64,000 bases of DNA, from the NCBI GenBank assembly GCA_905234475.1, contig CAJOHX010000004.1, forward strand, positions 1-64,000. Direction: 5' to 3'. The position numbers were made by a program, and so were the translations under genes. The stretch comes from an uncultured Bacteroidales bacterium (GTDB lineage: Bacteria; Bacteroidota; Bacteroidia; Bacteroidales; UBA932). This document shows, piece by piece, positions 26,374 through 32,831 of the stretch. The notes under the pieces are model-generated. The model searched no databases, was not told the DNA's origin, and worked only from the letters and a program-made list of their open reading frames with translations. The stretch's first letter is position 1; every line of letters starts with the position of its first letter.

Positions 26374-26777
26374 CGACAATTGAAGCAATGATCGAACGGG
26401 CGTCCGACGGCACATTCGATGTCTACTGCAAGGATGAAATTTTCTCCGGGGCCGGGACGACCCTCGAAACGGCAAAGGAAGACATGGCACGGCAGATGGC
26501 TTTCTACAAGGAAACAGCCATCCAGGAAGGATTCAAATACCCGGCATTCCTGGATGAAGCGTATGAGATCCATTATTCCGTGGAGGTCACCAGTTTGTTG
26601 AAGTACTATGTCAATTCCGGAATCTTTTCGCTGGCCGGCATGGAAAAGATCACCGGCATCAACCAGAAACAATTGTGGTCCTATCTGAACGGCACAAAGC
26701 CCCGCAAGGCCCAGGCGGAGCGCATTGAGCGCGGCTTCCGCACCCTGAAAAACGACCTGGCTATGCTGTTTGCGTGA
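26370..26777 (+). CDS. hicB: HicB-family antitoxin
   Basis: This antitoxin of 135 aa neutralises HicA and probably represses the operon. The N-terminal partial RNase H-like fold is visible (IEAMIERASDGTFDVYCKD...FSGAGTTLETAKEDM). The C-terminal half is a helix-turn-helix DNA-binding domain (SLAGMEKITGINQKQLWSYLNGTKPRKAQ). The order toxin then antitoxin is usual for HicAB. Its last 17 nt overlap the 3' end of the convergent U32 gene, so the two transcripts are antisense there. Confidence 0.9.
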   Translation: MTTIEAMIERASDGTFDVYCKDEIFSGAGTTLETAKEDMARQMAFYKETAIQEGFKYPAFLDEAYEIHYSVEVTSLLKYYVNSGIFSLAGMEKITGINQKQLWSYLNGTKPRKAQAERIERGFRTLKNDLAMLFA

Positions 26778-28533
26778 CGGTCATTTCACAGGCGGCGCAG
26801 TCGAAGTGGAGGGCGAGGCGGCGGCCGTTGTTGAGAAGGAACAGCTCCTGCGGAGGCTTTGCGCCCTGGTACTTCGGGCACAGGCCCAGTTCGTAGCGGA
26901 CGCAGTACTTGCTGCGCATCAGGGGAGATCCTTCGACAGGCTCAGGATGACATGAGGCGGGAGATTCGCCGGTCACGCCGGCGAATGACGGTTGGAGGCG
27001 TGCAGCACGCTGTCTGCTGACGCCGACATTATCCAAATCTTCGGCAACGAGGCGGCGGATGCCGTTGATTGTAGAAGCGCTAAGCAGCGGCAGGCGGCCG
27101 CCGGGGGTGGCGATTTCGAGCTCGTCGAGCGAGAAATGGTAGACCCCGGCGCGCTTGGAGAGCTGCTCACGCAGCATCGCCTCGGCCCGTTCGCGGTTCT
27201 CCGCCGTCTCTACGTCCGTGTGGAACGGGCTGAGCACCTCGCGGCCGTCCTGACTGCGCGCCGTGACCTCCAGCACATAGTCGCCGTGCACCCGCACGGA
27301 CAGGCTTACCGGGACCTCCCGGCGGCAGACGCGCGTCTCCAGCTCTTTTTCGAAAGCCGTATTGATATTGCGGTAAAGCGTCATCCCCTCGCGCAGGTCG
27401 GGAACATCCTTGCAGCGGACCTGCAGGCCCTCGCAGACGTCGCCCCGGAAACCGGTCACGCCGTCCGCAGTGGCGATGGCGAAGCCGTCGCCGTTGTGCA
27501 GCTCGAGCCCGCCGCGGAGCGGCTTGACGCGGAACTGCATGCCCCGGCCGGGCTCGCGCCGCACGGCCTGGACCGTCCCGACGGCCTCCCCCATCGACTT
27601 GGGGGCGTCCATCGAGGACCAGCGGCCGCGCTTGCCGTCCAGAAACAGCTCCGTGTAGCCGCGGTTGAAGGTTTTGGCGGTGTCCGGGGTGAACCCGCCC
27701 GTCACCACCCCGAAGGAAGCGCGGCGGTAGCGGTCGGGATATTTCGCGACCAGCGCGTCCAGCGCCAGGGAATAGTCCCGGACCACATTGCGGACATAGG
27801 AGGCATTCTTGAGCCGCCCCTCGATCTTGAAGGAGCACACGCCGGCGTCGGCGAGCTCCTCCAGGCGGGCCTTCAGGTTGAAGTCCTTGAGCGACAGGAC
27901 GGCCTTGTTGCGCAGCAGCACGCGGCCGTCGCCGTCCACCAGGTCGTAGAGCGAGCGGCAGGCCTGAATGCATTCGCCGCGGTCGGCGCTCCGCCCGTCG
28001 ATATACTCCGACAGGCGGCACTCGCCGCTATAGCACACGCAGAGCGCCCCGTGCACGAAGAATTCCACCTCGCAGGGCACGGCGGCGCAGATCTGGCGGA
28101 TCTGCTCCAACGAGAGCTCTCGCTCCAGGATGATGCGCTCGCAGCCCAGCGAAGCGAAATAGCGGGCCCGCTCCACGTCCCGGATGGCGCACTGCGTGGA
28201 AGCGTGCAGGGGCACGGTGATATCGTCCCAGGCCGCGATCCGCGGCTCCCGGATGATGAAGGCGTCCGCCCCCGCCTCCTGCGCACGCAGCATCTGCGCG
28301 TGGGCTTCCGCCTCTTCGCCTTCGCGCCAGAGGGTATTGTAGGTCACGAAAATGCGCACGCCGAAGCGGTGCGCATAGGTGCAGAGTTCCGCAATGTCCT
28401 CGAAGCTGTTGCCCGCCGCCTTGCGGGCCCCGAAAGCGGGCCCGGCGATATATACGGCATCGGCACCGCAGTCAATGGCTGCGATGCCGATATCCTTGTT
28501 TCTGGCGGGAGCCAGCAGCTCAAGGCTTTGCAT
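26761..28533 (-). CDS. U32 peptidase-family protein (RlhA/TrhP-like)
   Basis: This 590-aa protein belongs to the U32 group, whose studied members (RlhA, TrhP) are needed for hydroxylation of rRNA or tRNA rather than for proteolysis. N-terminal ELLAPARNKDIGIAAIDCGADAVYI, the catalytic-core VEFFVHGALCVCYSGECRLSEY and the Cys pair in RGECIQACR are typical. KIEGRLKNASYVRNVV follows. A late Cys cluster (SKYCVRYELGLCPKY; HFDCAACE) probably binds iron-sulfur. Two different repeats are translated just before that cluster (SFAGVTGESP and CHPEPVEGSP). The start overlaps the TPR gene's stop by 1 nt. Confidence 0.88.
   Translation of the reverse strand: MQSLELLAPARNKDIGIAAIDCGADAVYIAGPAFGARKAAGNSFEDIAELCTYAHRFGVRIFVTYNTLWREGEEAEAHAQMLRAQEAGADAFIIREPRIAAWDDITVPLHASTQCAIRDVERARYFASLGCERIILERELSLEQIRQICAAVPCEVEFFVHGALCVCYSGECRLSEYIDGRSADRGECIQACRSLYDLVDGDGRVLLRNKAVLSLKDFNLKARLEELADAGVCSFKIEGRLKNASYVRNVVRDYSLALDALVAKYPDRYRRASFGVVTGGFTPDTAKTFNRGYTELFLDGKRGRWSSMDAPKSMGEAVGTVQAVRREPGRGMQFRVKPLRGGLELHNGDGFAIATADGVTGFRGDVCEGLQVRCKDVPDLREGMTLYRNINTAFEKELETRVCRREVPVSLSVRVHGDYVLEVTARSQDGREVLSPFHTDVETAENRERAEAMLREQLSKRAGVYHFSLDELEIATPGGRLPLLSASTINGIRRLVAEDLDNVGVSRQRAARLQPSFAGVTGESPASCHPEPVEGSPLMRSKYCVRYELGLCPKYQGAKPPQELFLLNNGRRLALHFDCAACEMTVTQTA
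26923..26951 (-). repeat. Repeat family A, inside the U32 gene
   Basis: On the minus strand TGTCATCCTGAGCCTGTCGAAGGATCTCC has short ATCCT/AGGAT arms. It is translated as CHPEPVEGSP, in the same frame and orientation as the copy in hemW. Confidence 0.85.
26960..26991 (-). repeat. Palindromic repeat, family B, inside the U32 gene
   Basis: The stem is ATTCGCCGG/CCGGCGAAT with loop CGTGA on the coding strand. It is translated as SFAGVTGESP, in the same frame as the copy in prmC. Only 8 nt separate it from the family A repeat. Confidence 0.88.
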
Positions 28534-30669: not shown

Positions 30670-31584
30670 ATGGAAAAAGAAGATCCCATCGAGAAGCTTG
30701 AGAGAAAGCAAGCGGAAAAGAAGTCCAACGGCGGCCTGAAGGCTGTCATGATCGCGATGATCATCATCGCCCTCGCCCTGGGTGCCGCCCTCTATTATGT
30801 GCTGACTTCGAAGAACAAGCTCGTCAATGAGCTGAATGAAGAAAAGGCCGACCTGACCGAACAGATCGTCGCCCTGCAGAGCGACTACGAGAACCTCTCG
30901 TCCGAATACGATGTCATCAACGCACAGCTCGACTCCTCCCGCGAGGAGATCGCCCAGCTCGTCGCCCGCGTCAAGAACACCGAGGCCACGGACCGTGCGA
31001 AGATTCGTCAGTATGAGAAGGAGCTCGGCACCCTGCGCACCATCATGCGCGGCTACATCGCCCAGATCGACTCGCTCAACACCCTCAACCACCAGCTGGC
31101 CGAAGAGGCCGCCACGGCTCGCAGGGAAGCTGAAGAGACCAAGCAGGCCAACGTCAAGCTCACCCAGCGCGTCGACGAGCTGGCCGGCCGCGTGACCGCA
31201 GGCTCCATCATCAAGGCGCACAACTTCGTGATGTATGCCTACAACAACAACGACAAGATCACGGACAAGGCCAACCGCGTCGTCCGGTTCCTGGTGAACC
31301 TCAGCCTCGTGGAGAACGACCTCGCGCCGCACGGCCCGGTCCGCGTGTATGTCCGCGTGACGGATCCGGACGGCAACCTGCTCTCCGACGGCCGCGGCAC
31401 CACCTTCACCTTCGGCGGCGAGACGCTGGAGGCCACGGCTTCCCGTGAGGTGGACTACCAGGGCCAGGAAGTGGACCTCGGTATCTACATCAACAACATT
31501 CCTTCCTTCCAGAAGGGTGTCTACACGGTCAACGCCTACACGACCCAGGCGCAGCTTGGCCACGGCGAGCTTCTGCTCCGCTAA
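30670..31584 (+). CDS. Membrane-anchored coiled-coil protein, unknown function
   Basis: This 304-aa protein has a charged N-terminus, one membrane segment (about 25-46, VMIAMIIIALALGAALYYVL), a coiled coil (residues 50-185, with heptads such as EEIAQLVARVKN) and a C-terminal beta domain (190-304). The C-terminal domain would lie in the periplasm. Proteins with this layout are common next to Bacteroidales housekeeping genes, but their role is not established. The TATTTTTG box at 30636-30643 is its likely promoter. Its stop codon overlaps the hemW start by 1 nt. Confidence 0.82.
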   Translation: MEKEDPIEKLERKQAEKKSNGGLKAVMIAMIIIALALGAALYYVLTSKNKLVNELNEEKADLTEQIVALQSDYENLSSEYDVINAQLDSSREEIAQLVARVKNTEATDRAKIRQYEKELGTLRTIMRGYIAQIDSLNTLNHQLAEEAATARREAEETKQANVKLTQRVDELAGRVTAGSIIKAHNFVMYAYNNNDKITDKANRVVRFLVNLSLVENDLAPHGPVRVYVRVTDPDGNLLSDGRGTTFTFGGETLEATASREVDYQGQEVDLGIYINNIPSFQKGVYTVNAYTTQAQLGHGELLLR

Positions 31585-32831
31585 TGGTCTATCTGCACGT
31601 CCCGTTCTGCAGGAGCTTCTGCACCTACTGTGATTTCTATTCGGAGATCGCCTGCCGGGACCGGGACGCGCAACTGTTCGAATCGTTCACGGACGCGGTC
31701 TGCGAAGAGATCTCCCGCCGGCGGGATGAGATCGAGGCGACGCGCAGCCTGAATACCTTCTATATCGGAGGCGGCACCCCAAGCGTGCTGCCTCCGATGT
31801 ATTTAAAAAGAATCATTTGTCATCCTGAGCTTGCCGAAGGATCTCCGTTCACCGAGTTCACCATCGAGGTGAACCCGGAGGACATTGTCGAGAAGGGCGA
31901 GGCGTACGTCCGGGAGCTGCTCGAGCTGGGGGTGAACCGCGTCAGCATGGGGGTGCAGTCGCTGGACGACGGGATCCTGCGCTGGATGAACCGGCGCCAC
32001 GACGCCGCCCATGCGCGGGAGGCGTTCCGCATCCTGCGAGAGGCGGGCGTCGGCAATATCAGCGTCGACCTGATTTTCGGCCTCTCACAGCTCCCGGAGG
32101 CTACTCTGGCGCAGACACTGGAGGAGATCATCACCTGGCGGCCGGAACACGTGAGCGCCTATCAGCTCAGCATCGAGGAGGGCAGCGCGCTGGGGCGCCT
32201 CGTGCGCGAAGGCCGCTATACCGAGGCCCCGCAGGAGCAGTGCGCCGCGCAGTACCAACTGCTGTGCGAGACCCTTCGCGCCGCCGGCTACGTCCACTAC
32301 GAGATCTCCAACTGGGCCCTCCCCGGCTTCGAGGCCATCCACAACGCCGCCTACTGGTCCCGGCACCCCTACGTCGGCCTTGGCCCCGGCGCTCACTCGT
32401 TTGACGGAAAAACCCGCTCCTGGAATGAATACTCGCTCTGCTCGTATTCATTCGCACTCTCAAACCCCCACCGCTTCGCGGAGCCCCCTATGGAGGGGGC
32501 ATCGCCCTCCACTTCCGTTCCGGGCGGCGACTCCGTTGCTGCGACTTTCTCCGAAAGTCTTGCTGACACTCCGTCGCGGCGCCTGAAGGCGCCCTCGCTT
32601 CGCTCGTATGCAAACCAGGCATCCGAGCAATTAACCGACATCGAGGAACGGGAGGAGGAGATTATGCTGGGGCTGCGGACGGCGAAGGGAGTACCGGAGG
32701 GGCTGCTGGATGCGGCGAAGGCCGCGGCGATGCTTGCCGACGGCCGCCTGGAGCGCGTCGGCCCGGACCACCTGCGTATCCCGGAAAATTACTGGTTCGT
32801 CAGCGATGATATTATCGCCGACTGCTGTTAA
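31584..32831 (+). CDS. hemW: HemW-type radical SAM protein with repeat-encoded insertions
   Basis: This is a radical SAM protein of 415 aa of the HemW (coproporphyrinogen III oxidase-like) family, now seen as a heme chaperone. The Fe-S cluster motif CRSFCTYC is at residues 9-16, followed by GGGTPSVLP and EVNPEDIVEKG. Two parts do not belong to the family: CHPELAEGSP (residues about 80-89) is a translated repeat. A stretch of about 60 aa before LTDIEEREEEIMLGLRT is low-complexity and hairpin-rich at the DNA level. Without these the length would be near normal. The frame is open throughout, so it is probably functional. Confidence 0.88.
   Translation: MVYLHVPFCRSFCTYCDFYSEIACRDRDAQLFESFTDAVCEEISRRRDEIEATRSLNTFYIGGGTPSVLPPMYLKRIICHPELAEGSPFTEFTIEVNPEDIVEKGEAYVRELLELGVNRVSMGVQSLDDGILRWMNRRHDAAHAREAFRILREAGVGNISVDLIFGLSQLPEATLAQTLEEIITWRPEHVSAYQLSIEEGSALGRLVREGRYTEAPQEQCAAQYQLLCETLRAAGYVHYEISNWALPGFEAIHNAAYWSRHPYVGLGPGAHSFDGKTRSWNEYSLCSYSFALSNPHRFAEPPMEGASPSTSVPGGDSVAATFSESLADTPSRRLKAPSLRSYANQASEQLTDIEEREEEIMLGLRTAKGVPEGLLDAAKAAAMLADGRLERVGPDHLRIPENYWFVSDDIIADCC
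31819..31846 (+). repeat. Repeat family A, inside hemW
   Basis: TGTCATCCTGAGCTTGCCGAAGGATCTC is translated as CHPELAEGSP. It breaks a conserved region between GGGTPSVLPP and EFTIEVNPED. Confidence 0.86.
32466..32625 (+). repeat. Hairpin-rich insertion inside hemW
   Basis: Three perfect hairpins follow one another: GCCCCCT-ATGG-AGGGGGC (32483-32500), GACTTTC-TCC-GAAAGTC (32543-32559) and GGCGCC-TGAA-GGCGCC (32578-32593). The encoded peptide is low-complexity and absent from typical HemW. The opening CCCCCACCGCTTCGCGGAGCCCCCT resembles intergenic repeats I recall from other Bacteroidales. It is probably a composite of inserted repeat units. Confidence 0.6.

Follow-up and report, generated by a model that had tools for sequence, protein, structure and literature searches.

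Two unrelated palindromic repeats, neither of them autonomous, have very probably invaded the hemW gene of an uncultured Bacteroidales bacterium, each at a permissive loop, in a recurrent, tolerated and in-frame invasion. A CGTC-tagged REP would have entered the first loop (site 1) and a longer multi-hairpin repeat, element C, the second (site 2). The gene lies in a stretch of 64,000 nucleotides, hereafter the window, from a draft MAG of 2.31 Mb (53 contigs, 86% complete). A preliminary description of this DNA had reported two repeat-derived insertions in hemW. Both segments do come from different dispersed repeats, but only the second lengthens the protein. What had been missed is that both sites are recurrent targets across the genus and not peculiar to the window's hemW copy.

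We assign the ORF at 31584-32831(+) (Table 1) to HemW on the basis of its score against the equivalog model TIGR00539 (216.7 bits, curated cut-off 205.4), the CxxxCxxC cluster motif (CRSFCTYC, residues 9-16) and a HemN-like predicted fold; heme binding and transfer are predicted functions. The top PDB fold match of the AlphaFold model (pTM 0.84, built from 58 sequences) is HemN 1olt (E 1e-19). The closest named relatives of the protein come from rumen and gut Bacteroidales MAGs, including Candidatus Cryptobacteroides species. Its radical SAM motifs are intact and the core is under purifying selection, with a dN/dS of 0.15-0.21 against five relatives. Both repeat segments are open and in frame, so full-length HemW containing the two is presumably made, and it would retain its activity. 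In the model, residues 291-343 (insert 2) have a pLDDT below 50 and are predicted to form an unstructured loop between strands 277-280 and 346-349, the remainder being mostly above 90; segment 1 lies in a high-confidence region. Mapping the inserts on a structure had been proposed beforehand, and the open frame, the constrained core and the predicted disorder of insert 2 agree with the earlier view that HemW tolerates insertion around an intact core.

Table 1. Features of hemW, its two repeat segments and a second REP-bearing gene of the window.
Feature	Position	Strand	Description and basis
hemW (radical SAM heme chaperone)	31584..32831	+	415 aa, intact frame; ORF list, TIGR00539, AlphaFold model
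Site 1 CGTC/TGTC-tagged REP ("family A")	31818..31846	+	TGTC-ATCCTGAG-CTTGC-CGAAGGAT-CTCC, translated CHPELAEGSP; genomic copies, stem-loop architecture
Left hairpin of site 2	32423..32453	.	GAATGAATAC-tcgctctgctc-GTATTCATTC; 10-nt perfect arms
Element C at site 2	32463..32606	+	144-nt multi-hairpin dispersed repeat, translated in frame (HRFAEPPMEGASPSTSVPGGDSVAATFSESLADTPSRRLKAPSLRS)
Hairpin in element C	32471..32481	.	CCGC-ttc-GCGG; fold; corresponding hairpin in C5 copy with other letters
Hairpin in element C	32483..32500	.	GCCCCCT-atgg-AGGGGGC; fold
Perfect hairpin in element C	32543..32559	.	GACTTTC-tcc-GAAAGTC; hairpin count and fold
Perfect hairpin in element C	32578..32593	.	GGCGCC-tgaa-GGCGCC; hairpin count and fold
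Right end of site 2 insert	32607..32622	+	TATGCAAACCAGGCAT; resembles right end of ispG copy (ACGCAAACCAAGCA); sequence comparison
REP dimer in U32/TrhP-like gene (26761-28533, -)	26928..26989	-	In frame (FAGVTGESPASCHPEPVEGSP); same REP superfamily as site 1

At site 1, the residues CHPELAEGSP follow GGGTPS and are encoded by TGTCATCCTGAGCTTGCCGAAGGATCTCC. The corresponding 25-nt pattern, GTCATCCTGAGC-N(0-14)-GAAGGATC, has 12 exact-pattern copies in the genome compared with none for the reversed control, and is rarer among the sampled relatives than in the window's genome. Segment 1 thus belongs to a dispersed multi-copy family and, judged by its architecture, fits the CGTC-tagged REP type. 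The superfamily is defined by a CGTC (or TGTC/CCTC) end, an AT-starting stem of 8-9 bp, a loop of 4-5 nt and a short unpaired tail, which in most, though not all, of its members fits CCA (PMC3733652). The REPs of the window resemble it in their CGTC or TGTC tag, AT-starting stem of 8-9 bp and 5-nt loop; a tail is present as well, reading CTCC at site 1 in place of the usual CCA. Moreover, the hemW member begins with TGTC (31818-31821) and has two mismatches in its stem of 8 (loop 5), unlike the other REPs of the window, where the tag is mostly CGTC and the stem of 8-9 is without mismatch. A scan for GTCAT-stem-loops returned 12 hits in the window, whereas the reversed sequence gave one and 20 Markov controls gave 0-5; ten (C/T)GTC elements in the window have a 5-nt loop. 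Intragenic CGTC REPs are known, including two insertions within one gene, their hosts include Bacteroidetes, and the superfamily takes in RPE-4 and RPE-6 of Rickettsia (PMC3733652); hemW is not among the genes named in the text of that paper.

The preliminary description had this repeat interrupting the region after GGGTPS. It is indeed dispersed, but the spacer between P70 and E91 is 20 aa long, which equals the genus median of 20 (other families, 17-21). Therefore the repeat DNA replaced host codons without lengthening HemW, and we dropped the reading of segment 1 as a net insertion; the insertion event at this site would have been one without net change in length.

Two further observations concern REPs elsewhere in the window. 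In the U32/TrhP-like protein, a linker that precedes MRSKYCVRYELGLCP contains a pair of CGTC REPs read in frame, which makes the gene of this protein the second in the window with coding REPs. Positions 95-2843 hold a ~919-bp unit in three diverged tandem copies, and CGTC REPs recur there at the same spacing (966, 1885 and 2805). A Y1 transposase was also considered as the mover of these REPs. The genome has one Y1_Tnp match above the Pfam cut-off (contig C31) and one below it (C7). The C31 gene, of the REP type, is flanked by two near-identical hairpin pairs beginning GTCGTCAATGTCC (L097:1225-1318 and 2297-2390) and not by the CGTC-AT repeats of the window. This candidate was therefore rejected, as no Y1-REP link is established. 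No transposase flanked by CGTC repeats is reported in PMC3733652.

Segment 2 (~32423-32622) adds ~54 aa to HemW, the interval between N281 and E348 holding 66 residues in the window compared with a genus median of 12. Two other copies of element C are found in the same genome, at G000:C5:9023-9159 and G000:C49:6887-7020, as expected from the earlier statement that the second insert is repeat-derived. These two are 96% identical to one another. With the C5 copy, the nearest to it in this genome, the hemW copy shares only 78% identity, so the arrival of element C in hemW is not recent. The three perfect hairpins first described were about right in number: the insert holds four non-overlapping perfect hairpins with arms of at least 6 nt, against 0.8 expected per 205 nt of window. 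Only these local hairpins stand out, since the total fold is no more stable than that of shuffles (z = -1.38) and whole-insert folding energy is not significant for either the hemW or the C5 copy. The hairpins keep the same order in these two copies with different letters, and across copies the arms inside element C vary yet remain paired.

To place the two sites in a wider context we surveyed 80 HemW proteins of the genus (the window's included) and 18 from other families, and called a loop lengthened when it exceeded the maximum of the 18 by at least 8 aa. Site 1 is lengthened in 12/80 genus proteins and in 0/18 of the others (range 17-70 aa versus 17-21), and site 2 in 27/80 and 0/18 respectively (20-104 aa versus 28-30). 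On a tree built from core columns, the fewest state changes are 7 for site 1, with 13 rows marked as filled when the replacement in the window is included, and 19 for site 2, with 27 rows filled. Our control for the rate of loop insertion was a single gene, the upstream neighbour of hemW, which is kept in all 80 relative loci fetched and has an insertion of at least 10 aa in 2/80. The burden carried by hemW had been called unusual; this stands when other families are the reference, whereas within the genus it does not. Sharing of the segments with homologues in other genera had been named as the finding that would overturn the description, and the 18 other-family proteins are without them.

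The occupants of the two loops are of several kinds. Site 2 of many close relatives (L099-L106, L110, L111) holds a 113-bp repeat, element B, which occurs there in both orientations (inverted in L102, by inspection), whilst in L100 only its ends are left. Element B is dispersed in 15/15 genomes searched, with 7-27 matches per genome. Its ends are the inverted repeats GGCGGCAACTGCCCC...GGGGGCAGTTGGCCGC, it was also observed at loci L198-L227, and the window's own genome has 12 matches, up to 95% identical to the query. In one relative (L112) site 2 is occupied by a CGTC REP, and in another (L166) such a REP sits at site 1. Element C was found at site 2 in 0/15 of the closest relatives read there, and the two repeat sequences of the window occur at their respective hemW sites in none of the closest relatives. 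Thus, several element families converge on two HemW loops, in a host group (Candidatus Cryptobacteroides) new for such elements. The same two loops have been entered repeatedly, likely because insertions there, unlike those in the core, can be survived, a matter of selection after insertion and not of function. We infer that the repeats are mobile and that the inserts are close to neutral.

Inserts that persist across species and remain in frame, as element B does in L099-L106, L110 and L111, might instead have been recruited for a function, either in regulating hemW translation through mRNA hairpins or as a new interaction surface of HemW. We regard this as very unlikely, given that unrelated elements occupy the same loop in both orientations and that L100 retains nothing of element B at site 2 beyond its ends; moreover, disorder is predicted for insert 2 of the window, and the total fold energy of this insert is unexceptional. 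Loops between conserved strands often vary in length, and some inserts found in the genus have low complexity, so both loops could also be ordinary linkers grown by slippage and drift whose resemblance to repeats is incidental. The 25-nt pattern matched by segment 1, with its 12 genomic copies and none in the control, the two further genomic copies of segment 2 together with its homologues in relatives, the 7-27 occurrences of element B per genome and the 28-30 aa to which other families hold site 2 make this extremely unlikely. The dispersed copies refute it for the window and for the carriers of element B, although it may hold for single other relatives.

Least probable of all, in our judgement, is that hemW is a decaying pseudogene or that the MAG is misassembled at its repeats. 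The genome is a draft in 53 contigs, 86% complete, and repeats promote misassembly; against this, the frame and motifs are intact, the core dN/dS is low, the HemW score exceeds the equivalog cut-off, and dozens of genomes that were assembled independently have in-frame inserts at these loops.

Element C is present in 28/151 sampled genomes of the same genus; among ~200 genomes sampled from the order, no other genus has it. No RNA family in Rfam matches it, nor does any annotated plasmid or phage. In two relatives (L229, L230) it lies in frame in ispG, in the same reading frame as in hemW, the shared reading being ...SVPGGDS..AA....LAD.P.R.L.APSLRS.A.QA... In rsmE (L236) it is found in the opposite orientation, just before the conserved ILIGPEGDFSP motif. 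At least 10 fetched copies sit directly behind a tRNA or tmRNA terminator. No element-borne terminal inverted repeats were seen in the copies compared; a strong inverted repeat exists on the left flank only, and it is specific to each copy. It scores at least 10 in 20/36 copies, compared with 0.7% of random windows, and on the right side in 3/35. In hemW this repeat is GAATGAATAC/GTATTCATTC, and the position of the hairpin matches that of the copy-specific repeat left of other copies. Its left arm begins in native W-N codons and its right arm is an inverted copy.

At tRNA targets, the stretch from terminator to element holds an inverted copy of the 3′ end of the same tRNA. The score for the copy's own tRNA is at least 10 in 5/14 cases against 1.1% of mispaired controls, and tRNAs of the window's genome without element C have a mean score of 6.0 (2/28 above 10). 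The repeat extends past the terminator into the tRNA gene by 15 nt at tRNA-Leu and tRNA-Met, 13 at tRNA-Ser and 11 at tRNA-Ala; further cases include one at a tRNA-Ala whose 24-nt arms begin ATGCTCCACA. For rsmE, alignment to the solved, insert-free RsmE 3kw2 identifies the outer arm as native coding DNA for ILIGP. Read from these alignments of tRNA 3′ ends and RsmE codons, the outer arm is host target DNA, which the inner arm duplicates in inverted form. This suggests fold-back copying of the target flank at insertion, the mechanism that we prefer. In hemW, conservation of the arm among relatives is limited to its first few letters, and so the left hairpin is probably, by analogy with the other targets, host flank plus inverted copy. 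Under fold-back copying, a strand would fold back at the target, copy 8-24 nt of adjacent host DNA in inverted form and then be joined to element C; the resulting start hairpin would let the element settle behind tRNA terminators and in frame in hemW, ispG and rsmE.

Whether element C is a kind of mobile repeat that spreads with inverted duplication of the flank of its target, each copy starting with a hairpin of host DNA, is a tentative proposal to which we give somewhat less than an even chance. Close to an even chance should be given to a reading in which no flank is copied at insertion. Here, element C would prefer pre-existing hairpins such as tRNA terminators, or template switching at quasi-palindromes would homogenise the arms after insertion. 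The copies just behind tRNA and tmRNA terminators and the internal arms that differ between copies while staying paired would both follow from it. However, the repeat enters the tRNA gene beyond the terminator and each matches its own tRNA, and the outer arm in rsmE consists of conserved ILIGP codons, where no hairpin is expected.

The hemW case works in the manner of the Rickettsia palindromic elements (RPE-1 to RPE-7), but its host group is new. Like element C, which measures 144 nt in hemW and is also present in ispG and rsmE, RPEs are palindromic, ~100-150 bp long and located inside conserved genes, whose frame they preserve. Different RPE groups have been found at the same place of orthologous Rickettsia genes (PMC3767692), and one RPE-bearing enzyme is active (PMC2229807, a review). 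The present case differs in its host, a Cryptobacteroides-like member of the Bacteroidota, in its sequences, and in that unrelated REP, B and C families share the HemW loops. Element C itself is not an RPE by host (a Bacteroidales MAG) or by distribution (confined to the genus in the genomes sampled). Moreover, the target flank stands in inverted copy ahead of it, a feature for which we found no report for RPEs in the literature searched. Bacterial MITEs (such as Correia/NEMIS, ERIC/IRU and YPAL; PMC2229807) are likewise small and non-autonomous, and within genes they can be translated in frame, but in the sequence examined element C shows no terminal inverted repeats that belong to it and its left hairpin is made of host DNA.

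Palindromic repeats that code for protein are best known from Rickettsia; these findings add to their hosts a large group of uncultured Bacteroidales from the gut. HemW offers a natural experiment, in which one conserved enzyme has two loops with dozens of filled sites, several families in both orientations and empty sites in close relatives. When rumen MAGs are annotated or their protein structures predicted, in-frame repeats of this kind can be misleading. The inverted flank copy gives a testable signature of the spread of element C, whilst the spread of CGTC REPs was left open by PMC3733652. A limited search of the literature found no report of such a copy at a target. Fold-back (hairpin-primed) inverted duplication after DNA breaks in yeast (PMC10622511) would join a short inverted copy of the flank to other DNA, the arrangement present left of element C, but is known as a eukaryotic chromosome rearrangement and not as a route of bacterial repeat spread; a link to element C would thus be conjectural.

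Lastly, some tRNA loci show related arrangements. Four tRNA genes of the window's genome that lack element C (tRNA-Pro, -Leu, -Arg and -His; L291, L297, L280 and L293) are followed, past the terminator, by their own 3′ end in inverted copy, and in two of the four this is followed by repeat-like DNA of the CGTCGCTTCGCTCCG type. To the right of element C there is in L246 a direct copy of the left-flank sequence (terminator and inverted tRNA-Cys end), and in L250 a direct copy of the left-flank tRNA-Ser 3′ end, each possibly the product of a second event.
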